Below, piece after piece: positions 12,546 through 52,506 of a DNA stretch of 64,000 nucleotides. The number at the start of each line of letters is the position of its first letter. The stretch's first letter is position 1. Made by a program: the position numbers and the translations under genes. Source of the stretch: Miscanthus floridulus (lineage: Eukaryota > Streptophyta > Magnoliopsida > Poales > Poaceae); assembly GCF_019320115.1 (NCBI RefSeq), contig NC_089586.1:1054001-1118000 (forward strand). The letters run 5' to 3'. The notes under the pieces were generated by a model. It searched no databases. It saw only the letters and a program-made list of their open reading frames with translations, and was not told the DNA's origin.

Positions 12546-13345
12546 ATATACATGTGGACCTTCTAATTCATGGGCGGCAATGACTTTGCACTAGGTGGCA
12601 TCCTGCCTAACACGAAATCACACCAACAAGTGTATGATTCAAAGGAAATGTAAATGCCAGAAGCCACATTGAAATTATTGAGCTGATCTAAGACATTGTA
12701 GATGGGGCAAGATCATGAGATGAACAAGTACGATGGGGAAGAAAAACAAAAAACTACGTAACATTGAAAGGGAGAATAGTAGATTTTTTGGCATTGTTCG
12801 GCCAAACCCAATGCTTATCTTGAGCCTACAATTTATAGGGTCATCTAGAATTTTATCCTTCTAGTCGAAAGAAATCAAGTTAGATAACAACTCATTTTCA
12901 CATGATTTTGCTTTCTATACTAAAAAACTGAACACAAATGTTTCTTGGTTTTGAGAATAAAAAAATGCTATACAATTGTTATATGTTTAAGTGGACTTAA
13001 CAAGTTTAAGTGTCACATAAGTCTAAATGAACTTACCACATGAACACTTAACAAGACATGCACGTTTAAGTGTAACAATTAATTGGCTAAATGAGCTTAA
13101 CAAGCTTAGGTGACCTATGTCGATTTTGAATATTTCTTTTGGGATATACATATACCTTATGGATGAATCCACACCGAATACGCATGAAACCGATTTCAAA
13201 TATTTCTTTTGTTTTAATAGAACATAGTCATTATAAAAACAGGGATTAAGAATAAAGAAACCGATAAGTTGATATATTCTCAATTTTTCAAGATATATTC
13301 TCATTTGTTATACACTCCTATGTCATTTGATTGCTTATAACTATT

Positions 13346-13600
13346 GCCATGGTTGTTTTGGGTTGCAATAATCTTTAGTGGTGTTGCAATTGTTAGGTGG
13401 TTATTGCAACAAGAATCCTGAATGGATGTAATAGCATGTTCCTATTGTCATGATTTTTTGGGTTGTAATAATCCTCAATGACGTTGCAATTGTTAGGTAC
13501 TTATTGCAACTAGAATCATAAATTGACACAATATCATGTGTACTGTTGCCATGGTTTTTTTTGTGTTGCTATAGGCATGTGTCCTTGTTGCAATACAATG
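13346..13600. repeat. ~103 bp tandem repeat, about 2.5 units
   Basis: The phrase GGGTTG(C/T)AATAATC followed by GTTGCAATTGTTAGGT recurs at about 13360 and 13463, with a degraded third start near 13548. The spacing is about 103 bases. The array is non-coding and lies inside the CACTA-like element. Confidence 0.65.
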
Positions 13601-13689
13601 TTGCTAGCGACACTTGATTGTTAGGTGTTTTACTTTATTTGTTATATTAAACTTTAGCATGGTGTAAAAAATGATAAAAAAAATAGGCC

Positions 13690-18993: not shown

Positions 18994-21337
18994 TGAAAGG
19001 GTTGAGATAGCGACTAGAGGGGGGTGAATAGTCCTTTTTAAAATTAATCATGTCGGCTAACCGAAACAAGTGCGGAATTAGAACTATTGGTCTAGCCAAG
19101 ACTATACCCCTCTATCTATGTTCACTAGCACCTTGCAAAGATACTAATCAAGCAACAAAGGTGCCGGGCTAAGTAGAGCTCTCCTAACCAATTCTAGGAG
19201 CAAGGTCACATAAACCTATGCCACTAGTACTTTATTCAACAAGGGAGCTCCTACACATGCTAGTAGGCAAAAGCACAAAGCCAACTAAGCTTACTAACAA
19301 TGCTCAATAACAAGGCAACCAATGCCAAATTAGAGAGCGCAATTACTTAGCTACACAAACTAAGCAATGTGACTAACAAGGTTACTAAAACCAAATTAGC
19401 CACGCAAGGGAGCTACTTCTATGCTACACAAGCAAGAAGGTAATTAGCAAGCTACACAAGCTATCTAATTACAAGAGCAACTACACAAGCTTAATATGTA
19501 TAAAAGTAATTGCAAGCTTGTGTAATGGGGATGCAAACCAACGGGAAGAACAAGGTTGACTCGATGATTTTTCTCCTGAGGTTCACGTGTTTGCCAACAC
19601 GCTAGTCCCCGTTGTGTCGACCGCTCACTTGGTGGTTCGGCGGCTAATTAGCATCACCCGCTAAGCCCGCATGTCGGGCGCCGCAAGAACCTACCCCTTG
19701 AGTGAGGGTAGCTCAATGACACGCTTTAATAAAGTTGCTCTTCGCGGTTCCCACGGGGCGAGCACAAGTACCCCTCACAAGCACTTCTCCGAAGCGCCGC
19801 ACAAGCTTCTTGCGGGCTTCGACGGAGACCACCACCAAGCCGTCTAGGAGGTGGCAACCTCCAAGAGTAACAAGCACCACCGGCTTGCAACTCGATCACC
19901 TAGTGCCACTCGATGCAACCTCATGATGCAATCGCACTAGAATCGCTCACTCACATAATTGGATGATCACTATCAAGTATGTGTGAGATGGAGGGCTCCC
20001 AAGCACTCTCAAGCATAGATACAAAGTTCCCTAAGGTGCTCCACCCCAGCCATGGCCAAGGGCCACTTCTATTTATAGCCCCATGGGCTAAACTAGCCGT
20101 TACCCCTTCACTGGGTGTTTTTCGGGCTGACCGGACACAGCACCGGACGCACCAGACGTGCATACCGGACGCGTCCGGTTGCAATACCGGACATGTCCAG
20201 TAGCGCCTGATCACCATGTGTCCCATTCAAACTAGCCATTGCCACAATGGCTCTCTGACATGTCTGATCGGACACTCACACTGGACGTAGAAGCAGACAT
20301 GACCGGACGCTGAGGCGCTACGTCCGGTCGAGTCCAGTAAGCACCCAGGTCCGACCGGACGCGTTCGGTCACCCCTGACCGGATGCTGCCAGCGTCCGGT
20401 CGACCGTTCACAGAATGCCGACCATGTAGATTCACACCGAACACGTCCGATGTGGTGACCGGACGTGTCCGGTCGCTGAGTTCGCTGGTTAATACCGAAC
20501 GTGTCCGGTCACCATACCGGACGTGTCCGGTCACTCCTTTTCTTCACCAAGTTGATACACATCAACTCCAACTTCATCTCCTTTATAAATGTGCCAACAC
20601 CACTAAGTGTACACCACCATGTGTATGTGTGTTAGCTTTTCACAATCATTTTTCAAAGGATGTTAGCCACTCAACTTGCCACGGCACTCGATCCTAGCGA
20701 TGATGCAAAGTTAGATCACTCGAGTGGCACTAGATGACCGATATGCAAACAAGTTTGCTCCTCTTTATAGTACGGCCATCTATCATAAACCTGGTCATAA
20801 ACTTCTCTACACACCTATGACCGGTGAAATGAAATGCCCTAGGTTATACCTTTGCCTTGCGCATTCCATTCCATCTCCTCCAATGTCGATGCAACACATG
20901 CACCAACATGATCAATAATGATATGATCCACTTCATATCATCACATGATCATATTGGTTCATCGATCTTGACTTTACTTGCTCTTCACCATTGCCATCGT
21001 CCATCGGCACTAAGTCTTGCTCAAGCTTCACCGCCACGTGGTCCATCGCTCCAAAGCCTCCAACTTGCCCTTCACGCTTGCAACTGGTCCATCAAGCCAA
21101 GTCTTGTCTTGATCTTCTCCACCTTGATCACATGACTCAATGTCATGTCTCATGTGCATTTAAGCTCCTTCATCATCACATGTGTGAGCTTTGCAACATC
21201 TCCAAGCCATTTTCACCTTTATGGCATATGTTGCTCACACACATGTACCTGTGGACTAATCACCTTGTATCTCACATAAACACAATTAGTCCACCTAAGT
21301 TTCCACTCAGTTACCAAAACCAAACAAGGACCTTTCA
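18994..21337 (-). repeat. TR-GAG 3' LTR (left copy)
   Basis: The LTR starts TGAAAGGGTTGAG and ends GGACCTTTCA. On the minus strand a TATA box (GCTATAAATAG) lies near 20075-20065. The region 20110-20540 is packed with CCGGAC/GTCCGG words. It directly abuts the target duplication GTGGC on the left. Confidence 0.92.
20110..20540. repeat. Cluster of ACCGGAC-N-GTCCGGT words in the TR-GAG LTR (also 27930-28345)
   Basis: Around fifteen near-palindromic words built on CCGGAC(A/G)(T/C)GTCCGG or its half-sites are spaced over ~430 bases. The right LTR has the same cluster at 27930-28345. Between copies most differences in these words are C/T or G/A changes at CpG or CHG positions. The cluster lies between the TATA box and the left LTR end on the minus strand, that is, in the transcribed R/U5 side. 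Confidence 0.75.
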
Positions 21338-26797: not shown

Positions 26798-29142
26798 TGA
26801 AACGGTCGAGATGGCGACTAGAGGGGGGGTGAATAGTCCTTTTTAAAATTAGTCACGTCGGCTAACCGAAATAAGTGCAGAATTAGAACTATTGGTCTAG
26901 CCAAAACTACATCCCTCTATCTATGTTCACTAGCACCTTGCAAAGATACTAATCAAGCAACAAAGGTGCCGGGCTAACTAGAGCTCTCCTAACCAATTCT
27001 AGGAGCAAGGTCACATAAACCTATGCCACTAGTACTTTAATCAACAAGGGAGCTCCTACACATGCTAGTAGGCAAAAGCACAAAGCCAACTAAGCTTACT
27101 AACAATGCTTAGTAACAAGGCAACCAATGCCAAATTAGAGAGCGCAATTACTTAGCTACACAAACTAAGCAATGTGACTAACAAGGTTACTAAAACCAAA
27201 TTAGCCATGCAAGGGAGCTACTTCTATGCTACACAAGCAAGAAGGTAATTAGCAAGCTACACAAGCTATCTAATTACAAGAGCAACTACACAAGCTTAAT
27301 ATGTATAAAAGTAATTGCAAGCTTGTGTAATGGGGATGCAAACCAACGGGAAGAACAAGGTTGACTCGATGATTTTTCTCCCGAGGTTCACGTGTTTGCC
27401 AACATGCTAGTCCCCGTTGTGTCGACCGCTCACTTGGTGGTTCAGCGGCTAATTAGCATCACCCGCTAAGCCCGCACGTCAGGTGCCGCAAGAACCTATC
27501 CCTTGAGTGAGGGTAGCTCAATGACACGCTTTACTAAAGTTGCTCTTCGCGGCTCCTGCGGGGCGAGCACAAGTACCCCTCACAAGCACTTCTCTGGAAC
27601 ACCGCACAAGCTTCTTGCGGGCTTCGATGGAGACCACCACCAAGCCGTCTAGGAGGTGGCAACCTCCAAGAGTAACAAGCACCACCGGCTTGCAACTCGA
27701 TCACCTAGTGCCACTCGATGCAACCTCACGATGCAATCGTACTAGAATCGCTTACTCACACAATCGGATGATCACTATCAAGTATGTGTGAGATGGAGGG
27801 CTCCCAAGCACTCTCAAGCATGGACACAAAGTCCCCCAAGGTGCTCCACCCCAGCCATGGCCAAGGGCCACTTCTATTTATAGCCCCATGGGCTAAACTA
27901 GCCATTACCCCTTCACTGGGCGTTTTTTAGGCTGACCGGACGCTGCACTGGACGCAGCACCGGATGCACCAGACGCGTCCGGTCGCAATACCGGACGTGT
28001 CCGGTAGCGCCTGATCGCCACATGTCCCATTCAAACTAGCCGTTGCCACAACGGCTCTTTGACATGTCCGACTGGATGCTCACACTAGACGCAGAAGCAG
28101 ACAAGACCAGACACTGAGGCGCTGCGTCTGGTCGAGTCCAGTAAGCACCCAGGTCCGACCGAACGCGTCCGGTCACCCCTGACCAGACGTTGCCAGCGTC
28201 TGGTTGACCATTCACAGAACACCGACCATGTAGATTCATACCGGACACGTCTAGTGTGGTGACCAGACATGTCCGGTCGCTGAGTTCGCCGGTTAATACC
28301 GGACATGTCTGGTCACCATACCGGATGCGTCCGGTCACTCCTTTTCTTCACCAAGTTGATCCACATCAACTCCAACTTCATCTCCTTTGTAAATGTGTCA
28401 ACACCACCAAGTGTACACCACCATGTGTATGTGTGTTAGCTTTTCACAATCATTTTTCAAAGGATGTTAGCCACTCAACTTGCCACGCCACTCGATCCTA
28501 GCGACGATGCAAAGTTAGATCACTCGAGTGGCACTAGATGACCAATATGCAAACAAGTTTGCTCCTCTTGATAGTATGGCCATCTATCCTAAACCCGGTC
28601 ATAAACTTCTCTACACACCTATGACCGGTGAAATGAAATGCCCTAGGTTATACCTTTGCCTTGCGCATTCCATTCCATCTCCTCCAATGTCGATGCAACA
28701 CATGCACCAACATGATCAACAATGATATGATCCACTTCATATCATCACATGATCATATTGGTTCATCGATCTTGACTTTACTTGCTCTTCACCATTACCA
28801 TCGTCCATCGGCACCAAGTCTTGCTCAAGCTTCACCGCCACGCGGTCCATCGCTCCAAAGCCTCCAACTTGCCCTTCATGCTTGCAACCGGTCCATCAAG
28901 CCAAGTCTTGTCTTGATCTTCTCCACCTTGATCACATGACTCAATGTCATGTATCATGTGCATTTAAGCTCCTTCATCATCACATGTGTGAGCTTTGCAA
29001 CATCTCCAAGCCATTTTCACCTTCATGGCATATGTTGCTCACACACATGTACCTGTGGACTAATCACCTGTGTATCTCACATAAACACAATTAGTCCACC
29101 TAAGTTGTCACTTAATTACCAAAACCAAACAAGGACCTTTTA
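26798..29142 (-). repeat. TR-GAG 5' LTR (right copy)
   Basis: This copy is colinear with the left one along its whole length and starts TGAAACGGTCGAG. Its last dinucleotide reads TA where the left copy has CA, so the terminal inverted dinucleotide is mutated. The minus-strand TATA box is near 27883-27873. It is followed by the duplicate GTGGC at 29143-29147. Confidence 0.92.
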
Positions 29143-34528: not shown

Positions 34529-36410
34529 AGCCCCCGAGCACTTCATGGTTGAGTTCTGGAAGCCTCGTCTTGTTCCTTCAAGTCTTGTCAAGTAGGAACA
34601 AACGTCGTCCAAGTGCTTTCTTGAGCGAAACCATGCAGCGCTTCGTGAGATCTTTGCATGGTGTGTACCTTTTTGAAGAAAAAAGTACCCCCATTTGGAT
34701 GTAGCCCCTGAGCCTCTTGCTTTTTGGCACAAGGAGCTTGAGGGTCTTTTCTTGAAATCTCCCTAATTCTTCGTCGAAAGGCTCCCGAGCATATACCTGG
34801 TTTCTTTGTTGAAAAGAGCTCGGATTTAGCTATGTCCAGGTTCTTTTTGTCGAAAAGAGCTCAGATATAGCTATGTCCGGGTTCTTTTTATCTTGTGGCC
34901 TTGAAGTTGTCTGTCTTGAAGAAGTCTTCTGAGTGACGTGTGCTTTTTTGAAGAAAAAAGTACACTCACTGAGTGTAGCCCCCGAGCCTCTTGCTATTTG
35001 GAACAAAAAGTTGGACGGTCTTGAATCTGAGTTGTTTGAAAGAACTATATTCCTTTCCTTTTGTAGCCCCCAAGCATATATCCAGGTTGTTTTGCTCAGG
35101 AAGAACTCGGATGCTGGGTCTTGGCGTATTCTCTGGTAGTCTGCTATTGTCAGATGTAGTTGTATGGTGGTGGTTGAGTGTAAATGCCTTTTGTTCATGG
35201 GTTGTACTGTGTTGGTATATTCTCTCGAATATGCTTGTTGTTGAGTACTGTTCCTTCACGCCTGAGTCCTCTTTCATTGAATTCTGTCTTTTCACTGTGT
35301 CCTTTGTTAGGCTTGTTTTGTTGGTGCTCCTGGTCCATGTGCACCGCTCCTTTGGTCTATAAATACCCTCCTGGAGTGTTGTTTTGATTCGTTGAGCATT
35401 TTGTTGCTTGTTCTGAAGTCTCCATAGTCATGAATATGGTAGTTTGTGAGGTAGAGCAGCCCTTGGGCACATTTTGTAGTTCTCATATGTCTTGTCATAG
35501 CTGGAGGAAGTCTTGTGATAGGGATTAGAGGTAGACTAATCCCATAGCAGCAACGTACCAGGATGTACGTGGCAGTAGTTGGAGGAAGTCTTATGATATG
35601 GGCTTCATTCCTTCATCTGACAGTTCTTGGTTGATCCTCGCCGCTTGTCTTGAGATTGTCCGGTGCAGATCAACACCATATCCAGCATCACATCGGACTT
35701 GGGTAGACAGATGCCTACCGGCCTTCTCTGCTCCATGTTGTCCTGCCGTTCTGCTGATTTCTGCCTTGGGTGCACTGCGTCCATCCTTTGAAGAAAATAA
35801 TGTAGCCGAGTGCGGTTTGTTCTACCGAGTAGCGATTTGGAACACGTAGTTGTTCCAGAGCCTAGTTGTTTCTGGGTTCCTTTTTGCTACTTGCCTGTCG
35901 TAGTTCTGAGTTCGTTGGGTCTTGTAAGATGTGTAATCTTGTATCTTTTGAAGTCATTTGTAATAGAGAGAATCTTGTCTTCTAAGTTGTCATTCTTTAT
36001 TCTGCTGATGTCCTGGTTGTCTATGAGAATCCCGAGTTCTTTATGTTAGAACCGGGTTGTTATGTTCCTTGTGAGGTAACCTTCCATTGCTCCATGGCTG
36101 ATGAGTTCTTTTTGCAGCCATATGGTAACTCTACTATTTTGCTAGATGGATAAGTCCGAAATCTATCCGTTGAACTATACCATTGTGTGGATTTGTGCCT
36201 TCCGTCATTTTAGCTGTGTCAGTAAATGGACCGTTGTGTTCTCACACCGTGTTTTAACGGGCCTGGTGGGCCGCGTTTTTACCGGTGTTACTTCCTTCAC
36301 CCTAAGTCTGGGTTGGGTAGTGAGTCTGGGTTGAATTATGTAATCCATCCTGGTTACTCTTTAGATTTTGATCAGATGGTCTTAATTAGATTAATCTTGC
36401 TTCCTACAGT
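34529..36410 (+). other. Putative promoter and spliced leader ahead of the H3-like ORF
   Basis: No coding domain is present. The first ~550 bases hold a duplicated block with GTGTG(T/C)(A/-)C-TTTTTTGAAGAAAAAAGTAC followed by GTAGCCCC(T/C)GAGCCTCTTGC, at about 34660 and 34938, plus a tandem pair GAAAAGAGCTC(G/A)GAT near 34812 and 34853. A plus-strand TATA box, CTATAAATACC, sits at 35358. Just before the ATG at 36411 the sequence CTTGCTTCCTACAG is a good splice acceptor, suggesting a leader intron. That makes 35390-36410 a probable untranslated leader. The donor was not located. Confidence 0.45.
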
Positions 36411-36980
36411 ATGGCTTACACCAAGGTAACGCCCTGTAAGTCCGTTGGACCTAAAGGAGTTCCTCGTCACCAGCTTGCCCCTAGAAATGATGGTGCTAGC
36501 AGTAGCAGCTCTAGGCCTGATCCCCAGGTAGAGATATAGAGGCTTTCAATAGAGTTAGCACATGCTACTAGGGATAGAGCCTTGGATACTATCCGGCTGG
36601 GCAAGTTAAAGGAGCAATTGAAGTGTCGCACGACCGCTCATCAGAACTATGAGCGTATGTTAGTTCGTATGGTGGAAGGGAGAAATGAGGCTTGGCATAG
36701 GGAAGATGTAGCTAGAGCTAGAGCGCATGAACTAGAATTTTATGTAGAAGATTTAGAAGAACATAATACTACTTTGCATGAAGAAGTCCATAGACTGAGC
36801 AACCTCCTGGATCCAAATCATGAACCTCAAGCTGATGCAATGGACCCTGGTGTCATCATTGCTGATGATGATGAACTTGAAGAGGAAGAAGAAGAAGATC
36901 CAGAAGAATTAGCGATGGTTGATGAAAGTGATAATGAAGGCGGAAATGTTTTCGGAATAGATACCGATCATGAGGTTTGA
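36411..36980 (+). pseudogene. ORF with histone-H3-tail-like N-terminus, coiled coil and acidic tail
   Basis: This frame has 190 codons counting the stop, with one internal TAG at 36537-36539. Aligned to the mature H3 tail with one inserted residue, the first 24 codons keep A1, T3, K4, T6, K9, S10, G12, K14, P16, R17, Q19, L20 and A21. There is no histone fold. Residues ~25-40 are Ser-rich, ~44-135 form a charged heptad-like coiled coil, and the end is strongly acidic. An AATAAA at 37113-37118 follows the stop, and a splice acceptor precedes the ATG. It may be the extra 'orf0' known upstream of gag in RIRE3/RIRE8-type gypsy elements, or the antisense ORF of a truncated Tat element. Function is unknown; a role in mimicking or binding chromatin partners is inference. 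Confidence 0.6.
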
Positions 36981-37152
36981 TGTGGTCGAGAAGAAGAGTA
37001 GAGTTGTAAAATAGGAGATCTAGTTAAGTTAAGTAGTCTTGTTTAGGTGCGGGCTTGTGCTTAAATAAGTAAACCCAATGTAATGTGTTTGCAGTGAGCT
37101 CTTTTATATCTCAATAAAAGCTTGTGAGTAAAGTTTGGTTTGTTATGAACAG

Positions 37153-38298
37153 ATGCCTCGTACTCGTGCTTTGGATATTCCTGGTTCTTCGCATGAAGAG
37201 GGTGGTGTTCCTGATCCATCACCAGTTCCGCCAACTTTAGCTGATGCTATAGTAGCACTGGTCCATGTGACCGTAGAAAATGCTTAATTGCTTTGAGAGA
37301 TCGCTCAGAGTAACCAGAATATGGTGCATAATCAGAATATGGTGCAAGGAAATAGTGGCCGCAATCATAACAGGCAGGAGGCTACGTATGTTGATTTTAT
37401 AGATACAAGACCCCTAGTGTTCACTAAGGCAGATGAACCACTAGAGGCTGATGATTGGCTTTAGACCATGGAGCAGAAATTTGATCTTATTCCATGCACA
37501 GAAATGCAGAAACCTGTGTTTGCTGCTCAGCAACTTAGAGGTGCAGTGGGTGCCTGGTGGGCAAATCTAGTGGCTATGCAACCAGCTGGCATTCTAATAA
37601 CTTGGGCTGAGTTCCGTACTGCCTTCAGAGCTCATTATATTCCAGAAGGGGTGATGGCCATGAAGCTAGATGAGTTCCTTGCTTTGAAGCAAGGGGATCA
37701 AACGGTTATGCAATATGTGGGTAGATTCAATCACCTATCACAGTATGCATCTGAACATGTCAATACAGATGCCAAGAAAAAGAAATGGTTCATGAGAGGA
37801 CTGAATACCAAATTATAGACAATGATGACTGCATGTGCCAATGTTACTTATCATGAGGCAGTGAACATTGCAATTGCTTCTGAGGAAAAGTATCGGCAGC
37901 ATAAGGAGATCAAGAAAAAGAAGAGTGTGCCGTTTGGATCTTTTGGTGGAAATCAAAAGAGGCAAAAGATAATCTATCATCCAATCAACCATTATCATCC
38001 TCCTTATCGTCCACCACAGTTCCAAGCTGGGCAATAGTCAAATGTCTGTCCTGCTATAACCTACCCGAATTCACAACAGACCAATGCTCCTGGTGGCAAT
38101 GCTCCAACATCCCAGGGTCACAATTATCCGTGTTACAATTATGGAAGGAACGGTCACTTCTCCAGGAAATGTTCGTATCCCAAACAGGCTAATCAAAATT
38201 ATCAGAAGGCCCCTGCCAATCAACAACAAGGTCAAGCACAGAACAAGAACCACAATCAGAATGCTCAGAAGGGCAAAGATGAAAGGAAGATAGGACGG
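37153..38298 (+). pseudogene. Chromovirus Gag
   Basis: The ATG at 37153 follows a splice-acceptor-like TTATGAACAG. The retrotransposon-gag core (PF03732 type) is clear between 37468 and 37818: A-A-Q-Q-L-R-G-A-V-G-A-W-W, then W-A-E-F-R-T-A-F-R-A-H-Y and F-L-A-L-K-Q-G-D-Q-T-V. A basic region and one CCHC knuckle follow near 38130, but its second cysteine is tyrosine (C-Y-N-Y-G-R-N-G-H), a change one G-to-A transition explains. In-frame stops: TAA and TGA near 37285-37300, TAG at 37462, 37816 and 38035. The frame continues into pol without a shift. Confidence 0.8.
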
Positions 38299-41200
38299 GT
38301 GTTCTATATTCAAGCTGGAGAAATTCTAGAAGGGGAGCCAGTGATGATGGGTATGTTTCCTGTCACCAATCACCCTGCTGTTATGCTTTTTGATTCTGGT
38401 GTATCTCATTCATTCATCAATAGAACCTTTGTCGTAAAGCATGCAATTCCAATTGGGGAAACAAAGGAAAGTTTCTTTATACAGTCGCCCGAGGGATGTC
38501 TGTGTACTAAGGAAATGGTATACCAGGTACCTATAAACCTGGGTGGGCATATTTTTCCCACTACCATGATTATTCTCAAGGATCAAGATATAGATGTGAT
38601 CTTGGGAATGAATTGGATGTTTCAGCATAAGGCTGTTATAGATGCTTTGCATAGGACATTAAGGGTGAGTTTGCCTAATAGTAGTTCTCAGCTTCTTATC
38701 CAACTTCCAACCTTAAGGAGATCAGTGGAAAGAGTTTGTGCAACTTTTGTCAAGGAGATTAGAGATATCCCGGTAGTTTGTGAATTCCCTGATGTTTTTC
38801 CTGAGGATTTACCCAGTCTACCACCAGATAGGGATGTTCAGTTTAACATAGAGTTAAAGCCTAGAACAGCTCCGATCTCTCGGAGAGCTTATAGGATGCC
38901 TCCCAAGGAATTAGTCGAGTTGAAGACTCAGTTGCAAGAGTTGATTGAGAAAGGATTTATTCAACCTAGTTCATCACCTTGGGGATGCCCTACAATCTTT
39001 GTGAAAAGAAAAGATGAGACTCTGAGGTTATGTGTTGACTATCGTCCGTTGAATGAAGTGACCATTAAGAACAAGTATCCCTTACCTCGGATAGACTTGC
39101 TTTTTGATCAACTGGCTGGAGCCAAAGTTTTCTCTAAGATTGATTTAAGGTTAGGCTATCACCAAATCAAGATTAAACCTGATGATATTCCCAAAATGGC
39201 ATTTACCATGAGATATGGATTATATGAATACTTGGTAATGTCTTTTGGTTTGACAAATGCCCCAGCTCATTTTATGTATCTGATGAATTCAGTATTCATG
39301 CCTAAGCTAGACAAGTTTATGGTAGTGTTTATTGACGATATCCTAGTTTATTCCAAGAACAAGAAGGACCACGCGGAACATCTCAGAATTGTCCTGACCC
39401 GCTTAAGAGAACATCAACTATATGCCAAATTTAGTAAGTGTGACTTCTGGCTTAAGGAAGTATAGTTTCTTGGACATGTCTTATCAGCTGAAGGAATTGC
39501 TGTTGATCCGAGCAAAGTTAAGGACGTGCTTGATTGGAAACTGCCAACCACTGTTCATCAAGTTCAGAGTTTTCTAGGAATGGCGGGGTATTATCGTCAT
39601 TTTATTCTAGATTTCTCTAGAGTATCCAAGTCCATCATTGGGTTGTTGAAGAACCAAGCCAAGTTTGTCTAGTCATCTGAATGTGAAGAAGCTTTCTAGA
39701 ATTTGAAGAGATTGTTAACCACTACACCAGTATTAGCCCAACCTGATATCGAGAAGTCATTTGATGTTTATTGTGATGCTTCGGGTATTGGCATTGGATG
39801 TGTATTGATGCAAGAAGGCCGAGTCTTGCCTATGCTTCCAGGCAACTCAAGCAACATGAAGAGCACTATTCCACTCATGATCTAGAGTTAGCAGGAGTTG
39901 TCCATGCTCTAAAGATTTGGCGGCATTACCTGCTTGGTAATACGTGCCATATTTATATAGACCACAAGAGCTTAAAGTATATCTTTACTCAATCGGATTT
40001 GAACATGTGACAGAGAAGGTGGTTAGAATTGATTAAGGATTATGACTTAGAAGTACATTACCATCCTGGTAAAGCAAATGTAGTTGCAGATGCCCTCAGT
40101 CAAAAGAGCCATTGCAATTGTCTGACAGTAAGAACAATGGTTTGACTTTATGCCAAGAGATGGAAAAGTTGAGTATAGAGGTAATTCAACAAGGTAGTTT
40201 GGCCAATATAACTGTTGAAGTCATTATTCAAGATTAGATTATTGCTGCTCAGAAAGAAAACAAGGGTATAGCCCATATCAAAGAAAGAATCAAGAATGGG
40301 AAAGCAGAATGCTTCAAAGTAGATGATGAAGGTATGTTATGGTTCAACAATCGCTTAGTGGTACCAAAGGTTCCGGAGTTGCGACAGTCAATTCTTGAAG
40401 AAGCCCATGCTACTAGGTTATCAATTCATCCGGGAAGTAATGAGATGTACCATGACTTGAAACAAAGGTTTTGGTGGACCAAAATGAAGATAGAAATTGC
40501 CCGGTATGTAGCCAAGTATGATACTTGTCAAAAGGTGAAAGCTATACATTTGAGGTCTGCTGGAGAGTTACAGCCATTACCTATTCTAGCTTGGAAGTGG
40601 GAGGATATTAGTATGGACTTTATTGTTGGTCTACCCAAGACATCAAAAGGTTTTGACTCAATATGGGTCATTGTAGATCGACTAACTAAGTTAGCACATT
40701 TTCTTCTAGTCAAGAGTATATATCCTACTATCCAGTATGCCAAGATGTATCTAGCAAGAATCATGAGTCTACATGGAGTACCAAAGACCATTGTGTCAGA
40801 TAGGGGTACACAGTTTGTCTCCAGCTTTTGGAAACACTTGCATGCTTCGTTAGGTACCAAACTCCTGTATAGTACAACTTATCATCCCTAGACTGATGGT
40901 TAGACTGAAAGGGTCAATCAAGTACTTGAAGATATGTTAAGGTGTTGTGTCCTTAACTATTCCAAGAAGTGGGATGAATGTTTGCCTTTGGCTGAGTTTT
41001 TTTACAATAATAGTTATCAAGAGAGTATTAGAATGGCTCCATTTGAAGCACTCTATGGTGGTAGATGCAGAACATCACTGAGTTGGTCTGAGCCCGGAGA
41101 AAGAAGATTCTTTGGAGTTGACCTTGTGAAAGAAACAGAAGACAAGGTTAAACAAATACAAAGTAATTTGAAGATAGCTCGATCCTGAAAAAAGAGTTAT

Positions 41201-41659
41201 GCAGATAAACGACATAGACCATTGGTGTTTAACAAGGGAGATTTTGTATATCTAAAGGTATCACCGATGAAGGGGGTTACTCATTTTGGTGTTAAAGGCA
41301 AGTTGGCACCTCTATATATTGGGCCATTTCAAATTTTAGAGAGGTATGGAAAAGTGGCATATCGCTTGAAGCTACCCGAACATCTTTCAGCTGTACATTA
41401 TGTGTTCCATGTTTCTCAATTAAAGAAGTGTCTCTGAGTGCCTGAGCAGAATGTTGAGGTTGAAGGAGTGGAACTTGAACCTAATTTGACCTATTCCGAA
41501 TATCCTATTCGAGTCCTAGATCAGAAAGATCGCGTCACACGAAGGAGGACAATCAAGTTCTACAAGATACAATGGAATCAACATTCCAAAGAAGAAGCTA
41601 CTTGGGAATCCGAAGATTACTTGCTAGAAAAGTTTCTAGAGTTTCTTGCGTCAATATAG
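38299..41659 (+). pseudogene. Chromovirus Pol (PR-RT-RH-INT-chromodomain)
   Basis: The protease motif [10 protein letters not shown] is near 38390. Reverse transcriptase spans ~38870-39460 with F-I-D-D-I-L-V-Y intact. RNase H is in pieces across 39670-40100. Integrase is at 40340-41190, where the zinc-binding H-H-C-C motif has lost its first cysteine (K-Y-D-T-C-Q), and D-R-G-T-Q-F carries the second catalytic Asp. The C-terminal ~50 residues (41490-41657) resemble a group II chromodomain (W-N-Q-H-S-K-E-E-A-T-W-E). In-frame stops: TAG at 39463, 39670, 39697, two near 40890-40905, TGA at 40008, 41186 and 41435. A frameshift lies near 39825. This would be the replication polyprotein; chromodomains steer insertion to marked heterochromatin in the family. 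Confidence 0.85.
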
Positions 41660-41821: not shown

Positions 41822-44800
41822 TGTAACACCTCGGGTGTTTAAATACTAAAACCTACCATGTCATCATATGCATTGCAAAGCATTTGGCATTTAGTGAAAA
41901 TTTTGATATACATACAATAAAACAAGTTTACCTTTATGTGGTATGTGTTGAATTGTATTGTTTGAATCAAGTTTGAAATTTGGCTTGAATTTGAATTTTC
42001 AAGAAAAAACCTGATTTTCAGTATTTAAATCCTACCCTAAAAACTTATTTCAAAATCTAAGCATATTTTGGAGTTGGGCCTAAAAGCAAAAGTGTAGAGC
42101 TTGGCAAGTTATACAAAGTTTGTTTTTGGAGTTTTCAAAGTTGTTATGAAAAATTTGAAGTAATTTGAAAAGGAAAAATTCGTTAAATGTCCCCTATTTG
42201 AATTCAAAAGTTCATTTCAAAATGTAGACCGAATTAGGGGATGGTTATAAAAGCAAAGTTGTAGAACTTTGGATTTTGAGCAACTTTTATTTTTGGAGAT
42301 TTTTGAGTTGTTATACCAATTTGGAAGTAATTTGGATTTTAAAACGGATGACAATTCTGTAAATATGGTGAACAGTATCACGACCACCGCCCCACCGCCG
42401 GCGACCTTCTGCTCGGTTCCAAACGTGCCTGTGGCCGCCCTTGGCTTCGCGCTGGTGCGGAGAAGGCCACTGCGTGTCGCCTCCTTGCTCTCTCGGCTGC
42501 TCTATAAAGCTCAGACGCTGTCGTTGACCTTCCTTTCGCTGCTCTGTTTTTCCCGTCGCCCTTGCTCATCTCCGATGAGCCCTCGCCGTCGAACCAGTGC
42601 CTGTACCATCGCAGCAAAGCGCTCAATAGCTTCACCTACATCTTGTGCGCCTAGCCATCCAACTGCGGTCGCCTGATTTCACCGGGAATCCACGGTGTGA
42701 ACCCTTCTTCCTCGCGGCCGGTAACTTCTTCGTCATGGCTACGCCGTCGTGGCCAGCGCCCTCCGGTGAGCCGTTGCCCTTGCTTTGTGTACCTATAGCT
42801 CTGTCTTGAGGCCGTGGTGTTTACTCCCTTGTTGCTTGGTCATTTTGCCCACTGCAGTCGCTGAAACACCGCCACTGACGAGCTTTGCTTCGCCGTGATC
42901 ACCGTGGACGTCGACCCGCGTCACCGTTGCTTCTCCGGTCTCGCTCTTTGCTTCAACACGTTCGGGGTGAGCTACTGATGCTTCCTGGACCCTTTGTTTG
43001 ACTGCTACTAGTCTCCTATTGCTGGCATAGTGCTGCCATGCTATCGCATCCGCCATGGCCGGCGTCAGCCTTGAATCATGTTGTAATCGCTTAAGCTAGT
43101 GCCTTCAATCGATGCGCCTAGTCATGGTGATTGTGTTGGTGTCTTCGCTGTCACTGTTGGTCTCACCGTCGGCAAGGAAGCGTCGGTCAGCGCCATCGCC
43201 ATCGTGGTCAAAGCTAGAGGTTGAAGATGACAAGTGGGACCCGATGTTAGTGACTCAGCAGTTTGAAAATGATTTTTCCTTTTTCAGAATTGAGTGAATA
43301 GTGTCTGTTTTTGTTATTTTTGTGTAGATTTATTTAGAGCTCCAAAAATTATGAAAATTTTTGTGTGACCTCTCTGTGATGAATATTATTTAGTAAAATT
43401 ATGAAATATTGATTTATAATACTTTTAAATGTGATAAAAATTGCTCAATTAATTAATAAATGGGTTTCCATGATTTTTCTAGGCTTAATTAGTTATCCAA
43501 AAATTATGAAAATTGTTTTGCCACTTAGTTATCATGTGATGAACCTTTACAAAAATTTTGAGCTCAATTAGAATAAGTTGATTTATTTCATAATTTTGAA
43601 ATTAAATAATTAATTCATAAAAGCAAATAGTAACCTTTAATGATTTAGGTTTTGTTTGAAATTTTGGAATTGAGTGATGACCTTGGGTCATTAGTTGATA
43701 ATGATCCTTGGCAATTGATGTATGTGTTACAAAAAAGATCTAGTTCGTTTGACTTGCAACTGTACCGCGAAGGAAAGTTGTATTCGATTTGTTAATTTTA
43801 CATCCATCATCAAGCATCATGTTTCATATTCCGCATCATGTTAAACATGGCATTGTTACTACGTGTAGCAAACGAAGGTGAGCACGTGGTAGTTAATCAA
43901 GTTGTGGAGGAGGTTAATCCGTTTGTTGAGGTCGGATCAGATAATTGTGGAACGTCGTAGGAACCTAACCTTTCCGTCAACGAAGGCAAGCCCTGGATGC
44001 ATTTAACCCTACCATGTGTTTTACAAATTTTATCGCTTTTGCTTTTCTATACTGCATTAAGTGATTAGGAGTCAAGTGGAAACCTAATTGGTGCATCACC
44101 AACCTTGTTTTTCCATATCTACCTTGATTACCTGTTTTATTCGTAAATGTCTAGTTATGCTTAGTCATGCTTAGTTGGGTGATTACCTGTCACCTGAGAA
44201 TTTTAAATGGATCTTTGGTTACTTATGTTATCATGAGATATGAGCATGGAAGTAATAAATCTAGACTGGGCAGACTCGGTGTGTGAGAGCCATAAGACAT
44301 GGAGGTCTTGTGAGCGGCTTCTTTCCGCCTATGTCGATTAAGGTCTGTCCATTGTTGAATTGCATGAGGTGAGACTTTGTAGTAGTAACCACATACTTCG
44401 GTAAGCCTTAACTCGGCTATTCTATTATGAGAATGGCTATTCGCGCACTGGGAGTGGAGAGATGGCAGGAATAGCGTGTACCCACGTGGCAATGGGCCGG
44501 ATTGGTGAAGTACTATATTCTCGGGTGGCGCGGACTCGTTCTTGTTTTAGAAGATCCGAGGGTAGGTTGATATATGTAAGTCGGGGACCTGCATATGCCA
44601 TGTGGTCTAGAATCCCCAGCTGGGTTAATAATCGGTTCGAATCGTCATTGCTCCTCGGTTATGGAGACTCAACTCACTGTTCATCATCGTAGTTAATAAC
44701 TAGAACTTGAGTAAGGTTTGAAACAACTGGTTTGTAAACTAAGTTACCGTAAGACTTCCGCTATTTTACTCTGATGTATATATTTGAATAAATGTTGTAA

Positions 44801-44971
44801 TACTGCAATGACTCTGTAATGTGACCCTACTCAAAAATCATGGATGATTCGGGGTTCCCCGAGGACACCCGACAGACTTCTTAAGTTACCAGGAACATAT
44901 GCATAGTTGTCAAAGATCGTTAGACAGTGACAAGTGCATGTGGGTCCTATAACTTAGGAGGTTCTGCCACA
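41822..44971 (+). repeat. Chromovirus 3' LTR, ~3.15 kb
   Basis: The LTR starts TGTAACACCTCGGG and ends GGTTCTGCCACA, immediately before RTE LINE coding sequence. Inside are an AT-rich U3 with a ~167 bp tandem duplication (42010-42362), a TATA-like CTCTATAAAG near 42503, and a CpG-rich transcribed leader (42380-43250). Open frames in the leader (42269-42676, 43112-43297, minus 42793-43056) are low-complexity by-products. The right target duplication would be CCTTC (44972-44976); its left partner is not in the window. Confidence 0.8.
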
Positions 44972-47150
44972 CCTTCTCCAAGTCAATAAAAATCATGTGT
45001 AGGTCCTTCTTCTTCTCTCTATACTGCTCCATAACTTGTCTTATTAAGAAAATTGCTTCCATGGTTGACCTACCGGGCATGAAACCAAATTGGTTCATAG
45101 AGACCCACGTTATTTCTCTCAAGCGATGCTCGATAACTCTCTCCCATAGCTTCATAGTATGGCTCATAAACTTAATTCCCCGATAATTAGTACAACTTTG
45201 AATATCCCCTTTATTCTTGTAGATTGGTACCAATATACTTCTCCACTCGTCAGGCATCTTTTTCGATCGAAAAATATGGTTGAACAGCTTGGTTAGCCAT
45301 ACTATAGCTATGTCCCCGAGGCATCTCCACACCTCGATTGGGATACCATCCGGTCCCATCGCCTTACCTCCTTTCATCCTTTTCAATGCCTCTCTGACCT
45401 CAGATTCTTGGATTCTCCACACAAAGCGCCTATTGGTGTCATCAAAAGAGTCATCCAACTGAAAGGTTGTGTCCGTATTCTCACGATTGAACAATTTGTC
45501 AAAATACTCTTGCCATCGATGTCGGATCTTATCCTCCTTCACCAAGAGATGCTCCATTTCATCCTTAATGCACTTAACTTGGTTGAAGTCCCTTGTCTTT
45601 CTCTCACGAACCCTAGCCATCCTATAAATGTCCTTCTCTCCTTCCTTCATACCCAAATGTAGGTAAAGATCCTTGTATGCTCTACTCTTTGCCACACTTA
45701 TAGCTTGCTTTGTAGTCTTCTTTGCCACCTTGTACTTCTCTATGTTGTCCACACTCCTGTCATGGTACAAGCGTCTATAGCATTCTTTCTTCTCCTTAAT
45801 AGCCCTTTGGACTTCCTTGTTCCACCACCAAGTATCTTTAGCCTCGCCTCCACTTCCTTTGGTTACTCCACACACCTCTGAGGCCACCTTCCGGATGTTG
45901 GTTGCCATCTTCTCCCACATGTTGTTTATGTTCTCTTCTTCCTTCCAAGAGCCCTCTTTGATAACCCTTTCCCTGAATACCTCTGACGTCTCCCCTTTCA
46001 GTTTCCACCACTTTGCTCTTTCAATCTTAGCTTGCTTATCCCTATGGGCACGCACCTAAAAACAAAAGTCTGCCACCAAAAGCTTATGTTGAGAAACAAC
46101 ACACTCCCCTAGTACCACCTTGCAACCCAAGCATGCTTGTTTGTCCTTTCTTCTTGCGAGGACAAAGTCAATCTGGCTATAGTGTTGTCCGCTACTGAAG
46201 GTCACTAGATGAGATTCTCTCTTTCTAAAGAAAGTGTTGGCTATCATCAGGTCAAAAGCTACCGCAAAGTCCAAAACTTCCTCCCCCTCCTGATTCCTAC
46301 TACCATACCCAAAACCTCCATGAACTGCCTCAAAACCTGCGCTTGTAGTACCTACATGCCCATTAAGATCTCCTCCTATAAAAAGCTTCTCACTACTAGG
46401 TACAGCTCTAATCAGGCCATCTAAGTCTTCCTAGAACTATCTCTTAGCACTATCGTCAAGGCCTACTTGGGGGCATACACACTAATTACGTTCAAGACCA
46501 TATCACCAATGACAAGCTTGACTAAGATAATCCTATCTCCTTGCCTTCTTACTCCCGCCACACTATTCTTGAGGCTCTTATCAATCAAAACTCCTACTCC
46601 ATTTCTATTCATGACTGTCCCTGTGTACCAAAGCTTGAAACCTGTATTGTCCACCTCCTTCGCCTTCTGATCCTTCCATTTAGTCTCTTGAACACATAAT
46701 ATATTTACACGCATCCTAGTCATGGTATCAACTAATTCTCTTAACTTACCTGTAAGCGACCCTACATTCTAACTACCTAAACGGATCCTAGTTGGTTCGA
46801 CTAGCTTCCTTAGCCTTCACACCCGTCGACTCAGATGTGAAGACCCTTGCTCATTTTTCACTATACCCAGGCGCCGATGTAGCGCGCCACTAAGGATGCG
46901 ACAACCCGATCCTTGCTCACTTGACACCATGCCTAGATCGTGACACGACGCGTCACAGGGGTGATGACCTGGCTCTTGCTCATTTAACACCATACCCGGG
47001 TTCCGATATGGCGCGTCGCTAAGAGGGTTCGCCCCCAACGGTTTTATTTTGGGTTTCATCTTCATTAGAATGGCTAGATTTAACGTTGGCTCACCACGCC
47101 TATCACAACCCTCCTCCTTTACCAGGGCTTAGGACCTGCTATGTTGAGAC
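44972..47150 (-). mobile_element. RTE-type LINE, 5' end present, cut in the reverse transcriptase
   Basis: Read on the minus strand, an open frame starts near 47065. Its N-terminal region has three ~25-residue repeats, followed by an AP-endonuclease domain (46760-46060: V-Q-E-T-K-W-K, N-G-V-G-V-L-I-D-K, V-Y-A-P-K). The reverse transcriptase N-terminal part (46055-44976) follows and includes G-P-D-G-I-P-I-E-V-W and Q-F-G-F-M-P-G-R-S-T. It stops at motif A (I-F-I-D-L-E-K), exactly where the chromovirus LTR begins. Endonuclease-RT would nick the target and copy the RNA in place. TGA near 46818 and TAG near 46770 interrupt the N-terminus, and a frameshift or stop lies near 46056. The RT half is a clean 381-codon frame. 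The missing 3' half is not on the other side of the LTR element. Confidence 0.85.
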
Positions 47151-47967: not shown

Positions 47968-50899
47968 TTGGTTCCATTTAGGTAGCTGGAATGTAGGGTC
48001 CCTTACGGGTATGTTAAGAGAGTTAGTGGACACAACGGTTAGGAGACGTGTAAATATCTTATTCGTCCAAGAGACTAAATGGAAGGGGTAGAAGGTGAAG
48101 GAGGTGGACAATACTGGCTTCAAGCTCTGGTACACAGGGACAACTTCAAATAAAAATGGAGTAGAAGTTTTGATTGATAAGAACCTCAAGGATGGTGTGG
48201 TGGAGGTGAGAAGGCAAGGGGATAGAATCATCTTAGTTAAACTTGTCATTAGTGATATGGTCTTAAACATAATTAGTGCGTATGCCCCTAAGTAGGCAAT
48301 GACGAGAGTGATAAGCGACTTTTCTAGTAAGACTTAGATCGCTTGGTTAGAGCTATCCCTAGTAGTGAGAAGCTCTTTATAGGAGGTGATCTTAATGGCC
48401 ATGTAGGTACATCAAGTGCAGGTTTCGAGGCGGTTCATGGGGGTTTCGGATATGGTAGTAGGAACCAAAAGGGAGAGGAAGTCTTAGACTTCGCCATAGC
48501 TTTTGATCTGATGATAGCTAACACTTTCTTTTGTAAGAGATGGTTCCATTTAGTGACCTTTAGTAGCGGCCAATACTCTAGTCAAATCAACTTTGTCCTT
48601 ACAAGAAGGATGGATAAACAAACATGCGTGGACTATAAGGTGATACCTGAAGAATGTGTGGTCACTCAACACAAGCTGGTGGTGGCTGACTTCTGCTTTC
48701 TGGTGCAAGCCTGTGGGAACAAACAAGCTAGAGTTGCTAGAATGAAGTGGTGGAAATTAGAAGGGCAGGCATCAAAGGTCTTTAAGGAAAAGGTCATTGA
48801 AGAGGGCCCTTAGAAGGATGAAGGCGATGCAAACAACATCTGGGAGAAGATGGCAACATGCGTTCGAAAGGTTGCTTCAGATGTGCTTGGAGTGACCAAA
48901 GGGAGCAGATGTGTCTCAAAAGACACTTGGTAGTGGAATGAAGATGTGCAAAAGGCTATTAAGGAAAAGGAGTGCTATAAGCGCTTGTATCATGATAGGT
49001 GTGCAAACAACATAGAGAAGTACATGGTGGCAAAGAAGACTACAAAACGAGCGATGAGTGAGGCCAAGGGGTGAGCCAATGAGGACCTTTACCAATGTTT
49101 GAGTATGAAGAAATGAGATAATAACATTTATAGGATGGCTAGGGCTCGCAATAGGAAGACAAGGGACTTCAACCAAGTCAAGTGCATAAAGGATGAGAGG
49201 GAGTAGCTCTAGGTGAAGGAGGATGAGATCAGACATAGATGGCAAGAGTATTTTGATAAATTGTTCAATGGTGAGAACGAGAACACCATTGTTCTATTGG
49301 ACAACTTGTTTGATGACACTAGCAGGCGCTTTGTGTGGAGGATTCAAGAATCAAAGATTAGAGAAGCCTTGAAAAGGATCAAAGGGGGCAAAGTAATGGG
49401 CTCTGATGATATCCCAATCAAGGTGTGGAGATGTCTTGGGGATATAGCTATAGTATGGCTAACCAAGATGTTCAACAATATCTTTTGATCGAACAAGATG
49501 CCTGAGGAGTGGAGAAGAAGCATATTGGTACCAATCTACAAGAACAAGGAAGATATCCAAAGTTATACTAATTATTGAGGAATTAAGTTGATGAGCCACA
49601 CTATGAAGTTATGGGAGAGAGTCATCAGCAGCACCTATGAGGAACGATGCAAATATCAACAAACCAATTTGGTTTCATGCCCAGAAGGTCAACCATAGAA
49701 GCAATCTTCTTAATAAAACAAGTTATGGAGTGGTTTAGAGAGTAGAAGAAGGACCTCCACATGGTTTTCATTGATTAGAGAAGGCTTATGACAAGATACC
49801 AAGAAATATTATGTGGTGGGCTTTGGACAAACATAAAGTCCCATCAAAGTATGTGACCCTCATTAAGGACATGTACAGTAATATTGTGATTAGTGTTTGA
49901 ACAAACGATGGTAACACAGATTACTTCCTGATTAAAATTGGACTTCATCAAGGGTCAGCTTTAAGTCCGTATCTCTTTGCCTTGGTAATGGATGAGGTTA
50001 CCATGAACATACAAGGGGATATCCCTTGGTGTATGTTGTTCACTGATGATGTAGTGTTAGTGGACGAAAGCCAAGCAGGAGTAAATAGGAAACTAAAGTT
50101 ATGACGGCAGACCCTTGAGTCTAAAGGTTTTAGATTGAGCAGAACTAAAACCGAATACATGAGATGCGACTTTGGTGGAGCTACATAGGAGGAGGGAGAC
50201 GTGAGTTTAAAAGGTCAAGTAGTGCCTAAGAAGGATACCTTTTGGTATCTGGGATCGATGCTAAAGAGGGATGGAGATATTGATGCGGATGTTAGTCATA
50301 GAATCAAAGCAGGGTAGATCAAGTGGCGACAAGCTTCTGGCATTCTCTTTGACAAGAGGATACCATAAAAGCTAAAAGGCAAGTTTTATAGAACGGTGAT
50401 TAGACCAGCTATGTTGTATGGAGCAAAATGTTGGCCTACAAAGATTCAACATGTTCAACAACTGAGTGTTGCAGAAATGCGTATGTTGCGATGGATTTGT
50501 GGTCACACAAGAATGGACCGAGTTCAGAATGATGATATACGTGATCGCCTAGAGGTATTACCAATTGAAGAAAAGCTTGTCCAACATCGTTTGAGGTGAT
50601 TTGGCCATGTTCAAAGGAGACCTCCAGAGGCACCAGTGCACTGTGGAGTCCTAAGCCAAGCTAATAATATGAGGAGAGGTAGAGGAAGACCGAAATTGAC
50701 ATGGGAGAGGCAACAAAAAGAGATTTGAAAGCTTAGGATATACCTAGACATCCTTGTTTGAATAGGAGTGCTTGGAAAGCAGCTATTGAAGTGCCTGAAC
50801 TGTGACTTAGGGCTCTTGGTGGGTTTTAACTCTAGCCTACCCCAACTTGCTTGGGACTGAAAGGCTATATTGTTGTTGTTGTTGTAGTAGTAGTAGTAC
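47968..50899 (+). mobile_element. RTE-type LINE, 5'-truncated, complete 3' end
   Basis: This is the same family as the minus-strand copy at 44972-47150, entering just before the G-S-W-N-V-G-S start of the endonuclease. Endonuclease pieces lie at 48000-48720, including G-G-D-L-N-G-H-V-G, and RT from 48730 to 50160. The catalytic box reads F-T-D-D where F-A-D-D is usual. The C-terminal region (50396-50599) and a tail of GTT then TAG repeats (50868-50899) follow. Stops are mostly TAG (for example 48090, 48294, 48810) with some TGA (49488). Several frameshifts follow 49560. The element cannot encode active protein. A clear target duplication was not found. Confidence 0.85.
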
Positions 50900-51708
50900 A
50901 ACATAATTCAAACTTAAATTATTATGAGATTATTTTGATCAAGTTGCATGATCCTAGTGGCTAAAAAATGCTAATTCTATTTTTTTGGCAGTCACTTATT
51001 GTAGAACGATGAGCAGTCACTCGTAGTTAGAGGCCGAGCCGCTGAATTTTAGTTTTGCATGGCTAGTAGGTGGTGTTGGCTGATCTTTGCCTTACATGTG
51101 AGCGTGGCTGAGTGTTAGAAGCTAAGAACTCAATTGAGAACTTGACACCGTGACATCATTAGAAACTAAGAACTCAACTGAGTCTAGTACTCCTGCTCCA
51201 TCCTCCCATAGGTGGAGCTAGCTAGGTGGACATGTGGTCCATGGACCACACTAAAAATTAGTAAAGGTTAAATTAGAGTAGATGACCTCTCTAAAATCAT
51301 AAAAATTGTATATGAATCACTCTATAATTTCGTTTTACATCTAAAATAGATCACCCTTGCTCTAGATCCTAGTTACGCCACTGCATCCTCCTCTCTAGAA
51401 ATCAACGTGTGCTCTGTGCTTTGTGTTCTCCAGAAATAAATAATGTGTGCTCTCGTAAAGAAAAGAGTTAAAGATTTCGGATTGCTTTGTCTACTAGTGC
51501 TAGACTGCTAGATAATGCATTTGTTAAATGACTTTATTCATGTTAGGTGTGTGTCAGTGTGTATTATTGTATTATGCACTTAGGCTGTTAGCTCTAGCAC
51601 ATAGGTTCTTAATTCTGAAAGTCTGAAATATGAATATAGCAAGTACATAGTTATATGCTTCTTGTCACCTATTTTCATGTCCCTATTTAGAATTTGAGAG
51701 ATTGATGG
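50900..51708. other. Flank between LINE and Tat element, contains a MITE candidate
   Basis: This is AT-rich DNA without coding similarity. GAAGCTAAGAACTCAA(T/C)TGAG-like words repeat near 51117 and 51162. The candidate MITE is at 51211-51382. GATGG at 51704-51708 would be the left target duplication of the Tat element; its partner lies beyond the window. Confidence 0.45.
51211..51382. mobile_element. Candidate MITE with degenerate inverted ends
   Basis: The left end GGTGGAGCTAGCTAG and the inverse of the right end (AGTGGCGTAACTAG) are similar. They resemble the GTGGCGGAGC-type termini common in plant MITEs. Just inside the left end is the perfect 18 bp palindrome TGTGGTCCATGGACCACA (51233-51250). 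The length is ~172 bp. No clear target duplication was found. Confidence 0.35.
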
Positions 51709-52506
51709 TGTTGACGCAAAAGTGGATCTGCAAACACAAAGGGCTAATACCCGAATCTGTATCCAAGGCGTGCCAGTCGATTTGACCTGTTAATCGACAA
51801 GGATGAAGATACGAGCACTTTGGTCCTGACAACAGCGATACGCTCGGAAGTCACGGCCAAGAGGTACTCACGTGGAACTCGAGGATCGCCGAAGGTCGCA
51901 CTGAAGCGATGCAGCTCGCCGAATCAATGAGAACTCGTAAAGAGAAAATAATGCAAATTGACGAAGTCACCGAAAAGTAAGTAGATGCAAATAGGAGTAA
52001 AAATTGGTTTTGATATTGATTGATATCTCTTTACATTGCCCCTCACTCCATATTTATACCCTGATCTAAAGAGACACAACCAAACACAACTAGGACACCA
52101 AGCCCATATCTAAGGAAACACGTGACTCTTACATGAATCATACTCTAACAAATATAGAAAAGGAAATCAACTCCTATCTATTTCCCTGTCCGCCTTAATT
52201 ACGATGGAAATCTCACTGTCCTTCTTCCCATCGGCATACCCCCTGTTTCATTGGCAATAGTCTTCAAGTCTTCCCTCATCAGCATACTCCTTGTTTCATC
52301 GGCAGCAGTCTTCAAATCTCCCTTCATCGGCATACTCCCTGTTTCATCAGCAGAAGTCTTCAAGCCTCCCTTCATCGGCATCACCAGCTATCGGCAACCA
52401 TCTTTACAAGCTGGCTTTCATCGGCTATCAAAGTATACAGTAACTTTCCCTTTGCTGATTAGTCCACTCCGAACATTTTAACATGTGTAAAAAAACGGTG
52501 TCAACA
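51709..52506 (-). repeat. Tat element 3' LTR (798 bp)
   Basis: The LTR starts TGTTGACGC and ends GGTGTCAACA, giving matching inverted termini TGTTGAC/GTCAACA. On the minus strand TATAAATA lies near 52056-52049. U3 contains a 48 bp tandem repeat (52230-52425). Same sequence as 63281-64000. Confidence 0.93.
52230..52425. repeat. 48 bp tandem repeat in the Tat LTR U3, four units (also in the right LTR)
   Basis: Units begin with ATC(G/A)GCAT at 52230, 52278, 52326 and 52374, a strict 48-base period. Because 48 is a multiple of three, the minus strand reads as a 16-residue repeat (M-P-M-K-G-D-L-K-T-type), which I regard as incidental. The right LTR has the same units around 63805-63990. Confidence 0.85.

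Follow-up and report, generated by a model that had tools for sequence, protein, structure and literature searches.

A histone H3 tail-like N terminus on the ORF0 protein of a grass chromodomain retrotransposon

The DNA analyzed here, a 64,000-nucleotide stretch of the Miscanthus floridulus genome (contig NC_089586.1, positions 1,054,001 to 1,118,000 of the forward strand; hereafter the window), contains a decayed retrotransposon with an extra open reading frame (ORF), ORF0, located 5' of gag. By architecture rather than by a tree, this looks like the ORF0 of a Ty3/gypsy chromodomain element of the grass Retrosat2/RIRE3 (Tekay/Del) type. A first-pass annotation, made from the sequence, had placed ORF0 upstream of a chromovirus and had described its N terminus as a mimic of the histone H3 tail. 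We found gag, protease and reverse transcriptase, RNase H, integrase, and a chromodomain (PF00385) in this order downstream of ORF0, and the coordinates, the start, and the single in-frame TAG (codon 43) of ORF0 were all as claimed on re-reading. The annotation depended on translation starting at position 36411; this ATG is indeed the first in-frame ATG downstream of the in-frame stops at 36387 and 36369, and the A at -3 together with the G at +4 makes a good start context. ORF0 copies without the codon-43 TAG are present elsewhere in the same genome.

The window ORF0 starts with M-A-Y-T-K-V-T-P-C-K-S-V-G-P-K-G-V-P-R-H-Q-L-A-P-R. With one inserted residue allowed, 13 positions match H3 residues 1 to 21 (14 including the Met), among them K4, K9, S10, K14, and the P-R-x-Q-L-A block, so the alignment originally reported was reproduced in full. 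The annotation had also judged a chance match unlikely. None of 100,000 composition-preserving shuffles of the window tail reached 14 matches (maximum, 12), and the best score among 2,738 other ATG-anchored 25-codon reads in the window, taken from both strands, was 8. Decay has affected the window copy, and other natural copies come nearer to H3; where this copy alone departs from H3, the changes are of the cytosine-deamination type, as across the family. In copy L004, which has no in-frame stop, the tail reads MARTKVTPRKSVGPKGVPRHQLAPR.

Table 1. Positions of ORF0, its parts, and the remainder of the element in the window
Feature	Position	Strand	Description
ORF0 (extra ORF 5' of gag)	36411..36980	+	189 codons plus stop; one in-frame TAG, codon 43 (36537-36539)
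Histone H3 tail-like block	36411..36485	+	Codons 1-25, corresponding to H3 residues 1-23 plus one inserted residue
Ser-rich linker	36486..36533	+	Codons 26-41; matching stretch in relative P0006 has low AlphaFold confidence
Long helix/coiled coil	36522..36815	+	About codons 38-135; helix 38-133 in the AlphaFold model of P0006; sister-branch homology, E 1e-14
Acidic C-terminal tail	36816..36977	+	About codons 136-189; from sequence and the AlphaFold model of P0006
Pre-ATG sequence	36387..36410	+	Acceptor-like sequence CTTGCTTCCTACAG with A at -3 and G at +4; conserved among family copies
gag remnant with internal stops	37153..38298	+	Capsid part 37465-37815, PF03732
Protease/reverse transcriptase region of pol	38299..39465	+	PF08284, PF00078
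RNase H part	39777..40007	+	PF17917
Integrase	40334..41434	+	H2C2 zinc-binding PF17921 and sub-threshold core match (40334-40891); SH3-like C-terminal PF24626 (41189-41434)
Chromodomain at pol end	41438..41656	+	PF00385, E 4.8e-6, above its cutoff
Probable 3' long terminal repeat (LTR) end	44471..44971	+	Pieces match the region just upstream of the L004 primer-binding site
Left edge of homology to other copies	36286	+	No family 5' leader, primer-binding site, or 5' LTR found left of this edge in the window

We collected further copies from the same genome in three sets. The first was obtained with ORF0 residues 58 to 189, a query that lacks the N terminus; 150 places were scored of 9,389 candidates, and 88 of the 150, the window copy included, were read. 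A recognizable tail was present in 86 of these 88 copies, the other two (L012 and L047) carrying other sequence there. Over the 88 copies, K4 was kept in 84, K9 in 86, S10 in 80, and K14 in 84; the counts for R2, R8, and R17 were 67, 41, and 59, and the arginines were lost mostly to His or Cys. A stop stood at the Q19 position in 16 copies. The second set comprised 30 of 150 scored places obtained with the relative P0097, tail included; all 30 had the tail with K4, K9, S10, and K14, and T3 was kept in 22. For the third set (20 of 150 places), the query was the body only of a divergent relative, P0135, and again every copy carried the tail, which in one case (L152) was recognized by eye.

A search of a collection of 5.8 billion proteins returned 655 relatives at E 0.01. 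Among the 120 listed, 20 had a full tail, 4 were cut inside it, and 96 were without it, 95 of the latter starting after residue 45. Another 27 relatives came from queries L004 and P0134 residues 1 to 45; they were selected by the tail and are hence a biased sample. We counted residues by alignment over the 46 full tails found among these 147 proteins. K4 was present in 44 (R in 2) and A21 in 44; the count was 45 for each of K9, Q19, and L20 and 43 for each of T3 and T6. The annotation had listed K4, K9, S10, and K14 among the matching residues and would have been refuted by homologues that do not conserve the K4, K9, and K14 positions; K4 and K9 passed this check, whereas S10 (30/46) and K14 (35/46) vary between families, and we dropped both from the conserved set. 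At the H3 K18 and K23 positions, all 46 tails carry H and R, respectively, and none has lysine. Two relatives, P0133 and P0134, begin with MARTKQTARK, identical to H3, and the best Protein Data Bank (PDB) match of P0133 was H3, at E 0.0049. As judged from these alignments, what is mimicked is H3 residues 1 to 9 plus P-R-x-Q-L-A, not every mark. A relative in viral contigs was also searched for, and none was confirmed.

The tail has diverged far less than the protein that carries it. In eight families with less than 60% body identity, identity was 0.83 in the tail (residues 1 to 25) versus 0.28 in the body, the tail being higher in 28 of 28 pairs; this contrast is inflated because seven of the eight families were found through the tail, and the copy sets obtained with body-only queries serve as the control. 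The body of P0135 alone finds the family at E 7.4e-14.

A degenerate pattern coding for MARTKQTARK gave 1,878 exact matches in the genome, a number that will include true H3 genes as well; the reversed control gave 0. We fetched the first ten of the 1,878 matches along contig C1, and all ten, two of them with one change, read into a longer ORF0 starting with MARTKQTARKSTGGRAP and not into a histone. The ORF0 of this sister branch has an extra central domain, followed by a helix region and an acidic tail homologous to those of the window family. None of the ten copies has lysine at the position of K14, K18, or K23. Two open ORFs, L159 and L167, share 45% identity in the body and 20 of 24 residues in the tail; in their first 17 codons they differ by 7 synonymous and 0 nonsynonymous changes (2 and 0 outside the ten codons of the search pattern). 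Against the PDB, L167 matched H3 at E 3.9e-5 and L159 at E 2.6e-5, and the 60 listed out of 134 and 127 matches, respectively, were H3-type chains. These results bear on the possibility that a short basic N terminus resembles H3 by chance. The match spans only 25 residues, and the sole PDB alignment of L004, to an H3 peptide, was not significant by itself (E 0.41); on the other side, besides the PDB matches of the sister ORFs, none of 100,000 shuffles reached the natural score for any of nine tails. A chance resemblance is scarcely credible on these grounds, and we rejected it.

For the sister central domain (about residues 30 to 150 of L159 and L167), Pfam gave no match above threshold. Modeled from P0147 alone, the domain is predicted as alpha-beta-beta-beta-alpha with a mean pLDDT of 64, and a fold search with this model returned no match at E <=0.001; a fold like that of double-stranded-RNA-binding domains is only a thought.

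The annotation had stated that no histone fold follows the tail, and our analyses agree. A Pfam search of the window ORF0 gave sub-threshold matches only, none of them a histone. An AlphaFold model of the relative P0006, built from 19 sequences, shows one high-confidence helix (residues 38 to 133) between a low-confidence, unfolded stretch of 37 residues at the N terminus and an equally unfolded C-terminal tail, with no histone fold; none was found in the sister-branch ORF either. The acidic fraction is 0.40 over the last 60 residues of L004. Long helices of this kind usually self-associate, so the ORF0 protein, as modeled, probably does so too. Thus, ORF0 proteins are like histone H3 in their N-terminal tail, the first ten residues (with Met) being identical in P0133, P0134, and, by the search pattern, the sister copies, and are unlike it in the fold.

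Given the sequence comparisons, we regard the ORF0 start as a real look-alike of the H3 tail, conserved between families and centered on the H3 N terminus, and the tail as almost certainly H3-derived: the module would descend from a captured H3 5' end. In H3, a Met that precedes Ala is removed, and the same removal in ORF0 would expose an A-R-T-K start. The helix would then hold several A-R-T-K-x-T-x-R-K tails together, giving a multivalent ligand. Its targets would be host proteins that act on H3 tails at K4 and K9, either as binders or as modifying enzymes, where these tails are unmodified or methylated rather than acetylated; ORF0 would compete for these proteins or recruit them, as an anti-silencing decoy or as a chromatin tether. 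We put this forward tentatively, as the leading explanation and a serious possibility that stops short of being probable. Host silencing of plant transposons runs through H3K4 and H3K9 readers and writers, and because these act on exactly the two lysines that are kept, a decoy or tether would be the most likely use of such a ligand; a role as bait or decoy, which the annotation had raised, is plausible. More doubtful is the general statement that grass chromodomain elements, in hundreds to thousands of copies, carry a multivalent mimic that keeps the methylatable K4 and K9, has other residues in place of the acetylatable K18 and K23 (and of K14 as well in the sister branch), and titrates or hijacks H3K4 and H3K9 readers and writers. 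If true, an H3 tail kept on a high-copy element protein despite the divergence of its body would be a direct countermove to silencing.

Several observations weigh against a role as H3-tail ligand. The annotation had suggested comparing purifying selection on the tail with that on the coiled coil, and inside the genome families stronger constraint on the tail found no support: in the window family (86 copies), pN/pS was 0.59 in the tail versus 0.37 in the coil, and between two subfamilies of the same genome identity was 0.82 in the tail, 0.82 in the coil, and 0.90 in the linker. The fixed differences between these subfamilies were 3 synonymous and 2 nonsynonymous in the 25 codons of the tail and 13 and 7 in 94 codons of the coil. 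Methylation-type decay of CG-bearing arginine codons may explain the weak constraint on the tail, and the within-genome test is confounded by cytosine-deamination decay. Moreover, one subfamily has Ala in place of T3, two relatives carry R at K4, some sister copies are without Q19, L159 and L167 do not agree at 4 of the 7 residues that close the tail, and L004, the only window-family ORF tried in the PDB search, was not significant alone. Finally, the non-H3 residues H18, P22, and R23 were each present in 46 of 46 full tails and are therefore as invariant as K4 and K9, which implies that part of the block is kept for something besides faithful mimicry.

This last point leads to a different explanation, in which the tail, inherited from a captured H3 5' end, would be kept for a job internal to the element, such as Gag or integrase packing or control of ORF0 translation, with no H3-like binding. 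The fixed non-H3 residues (the inserted G, V15, H18, P22, and R23) are kept as well as those shared with H3, and a constraint on nucleotides is possible at a start that overlaps an out-of-frame upstream ATG and a well-kept acceptor-like site. We nevertheless consider such a fossil rather unlikely, since the 7 synonymous and 0 nonsynonymous changes between L159 and L167 point to constraint on the protein, though ten of the 17 codons were fixed by the search, and since the A-R-T-K start and R8-K9 are among the residues retained.

As to the nucleotides themselves, the upstream ATG opens a 17-codon ORF (36376-36429) running across the ORF0 start. An acceptor-like sequence directly precedes the ATG of ORF0 as well as that of gag (CTTGCTTCCTACAG, then t and the ATG, at 36387-36410; GAACAG, then the ATG, at 37140-37155). 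The site 5' of ORF0 is well kept across the 86 copies of the first set and the 30 of the second, the C of its CAG being present in 68 of the 86, and in the sister branch a CAG lies directly 5' of the ORF0 ATG in 10 of 10 copies read. The choice of translated ORF, ORF0 or gag, may thus be made by alternative splicing.

The tail might also act as a nuclear localization signal of the H3 type that takes ORF0 and its cargo to the nucleus via H3-carrying importins. The tail of H3 also works as an import signal, and the ORF0 block is basic (7 K/R within the first 25 residues of L004), disordered, and located at the extreme N terminus; import would further account for the P-R-H-Q-L-A-P-R half being as conserved as the half with K4 and K9. 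However, import as such would not require A-R-T-K to stay at the very N terminus, and K14 and K23, which we take to be the import lysines, are variable or replaced by Arg. On balance, we think this explanation unlikely.

The remainder of the element is in poor condition in the window. Homology to 37 other long-flanked copies starts abruptly at 36286-36288, and the gag-pol frame is broken by stops and frame changes. In L004, a leader, an LTR, and a TGGTATCAGAGC primer-binding site, which we take to be of the tRNA-Met type, lie to the left of ORF0, the primer-binding site about 400 bases before it; the TGGTATCAGAGC site was not found in the window copy, where homology starts at 36286. The annotation had asked whether the H3-like ORF is always paired with a chromodomain-bearing gag-pol. 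A chromodomain was found downstream of ORF0 in 16 of 20 copies (9 of 12 in the window family and 7 of 8 in the second subfamily), and 2 of 3 sister copies had integrase plus chromodomain at the expected distance; the pairing was thus seen in most, not all, of the copies examined.

Since ORF0 and a chromodomain integrase co-occur in both branches, the tail could bind the chromodomain of the element itself, for instance to mask or recruit integrase. When the chromodomain of the window element was aligned to Clr4, the Trp was kept and a His occupied what we take to be the third aromatic-cage position. Unlike an HP1-type (group I) chromodomain, that of the element thus appears to be without the full three-residue aromatic cage, and with the third residue missing it is not an obvious partner for the tail. 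According to Neumann et al. 2019 (PMC6317226), type II chromodomains are without cage residues and have no identified partner. Self-binding of this sort is very unlikely.

Short segments resembling the H3 N terminus that bind H3-tail enzymes or readers are familiar from the histone-tail mimics influenza NS1, G9a, and SNAIL1. Their matches extend over few residues, whereas that of ORF0 covers H3 residues 1 to 23, is N-terminal, and occurs in high-copy retrotransposon families. A histone-tail mimic would show a conserved match beyond chance that is centered on modified residues, and it would bind, or be modified by, an H3-tail reader, writer, or eraser; the first of these describes ORF0 at K4 and K9, and S10 and K14 are not conserved between families.

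ORF0 as such is an established feature of grass elements. Gao et al. 2012 (PMC3485330) describe it in rice Retrosat2, RIRE3, and RIRE8, with homologues in ZMsat2 (maize), Sorsat2 (sorghum), and Brasat2 (Brachypodium), report it from grasses only, beside the Ty3/gypsy polyprotein ORF, and find low similarity of ORF0 between species, ORF1 being better kept. They suggest that ORF0s are metabolic enzymes and call the effect on transposition "not clear"; here, by contrast, the body consists of a helix plus an acidic tail, and conservation lies in the H3-tail block. The element of the window shares with Retrosat2/RIRE3 an ORF in sense orientation located between the 5' leader and gag, a gag-pol in the Ty3/gypsy order whose integrase is followed by a terminal chromodomain, and, in L004, a primer-binding site that is presumably of the tRNA-Met type. 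The LTRs of Retrosat2/RIRE3 measure about 3 kb; the window shows only a probable 3' LTR end, and no 5' LTR was found in it. Neumann et al. 2019 (PMC6317226) place Retrosat-2 in the Tekay clade and count extra ORFs only at >=250 codons, a cutoff below which the 189-codon ORF0 would fall. The word "histone" is absent from Gao et al. 2012 (PMC3485330) and from the available sections of Vicient and Casacuberta 2020 (PMC7264820), and literature searches, judged by their listings and by selected passages, turned up no account of the H3 resemblance of ORF0.

On this reading, the H3-tail block would give a mechanistic lead for ORF0, and the apparent divergence of ORF0 in comparisons may be due to its conserved part being only 25 residues long. 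The abstract of a 2011 paper by Steinbauerova and coworkers is said to mention 5' extra ORFs of Poaceae chromoviruses, part of them with partial similarity to histone H3. If this is right, the family is the same and the resemblance is already in print; what is added here would then be the limitation of the likeness to the tail, the contrast between a conserved tail and a diverging body, the residues that are kept, and the high-copy sister branch. To our knowledge, that paper does not analyze the kept residues, the tail-only nature of the likeness, or the conservation contrast.

The window holds several other repeats. A minus-strand ORF (44910-46055), by eye similar to a non-LTR reverse transcriptase, adjoins the 3' end of the element and lies in one arm of a 1.8-kb inverted repeat with 81% identity (44972-46788 and 47970-49784). 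Direct repeats of 2.3 kb that are 95% identical (18994-21335 and 26798-29140) are possibly the LTR pair of another element. Diverged direct repeats with several spacings occupy 13341-15038. A direct repeat of at least 0.7 kb with 98% identity (51708-52428 and 63280-64000) reaches the edge of the window and is a possible recent LTR element.
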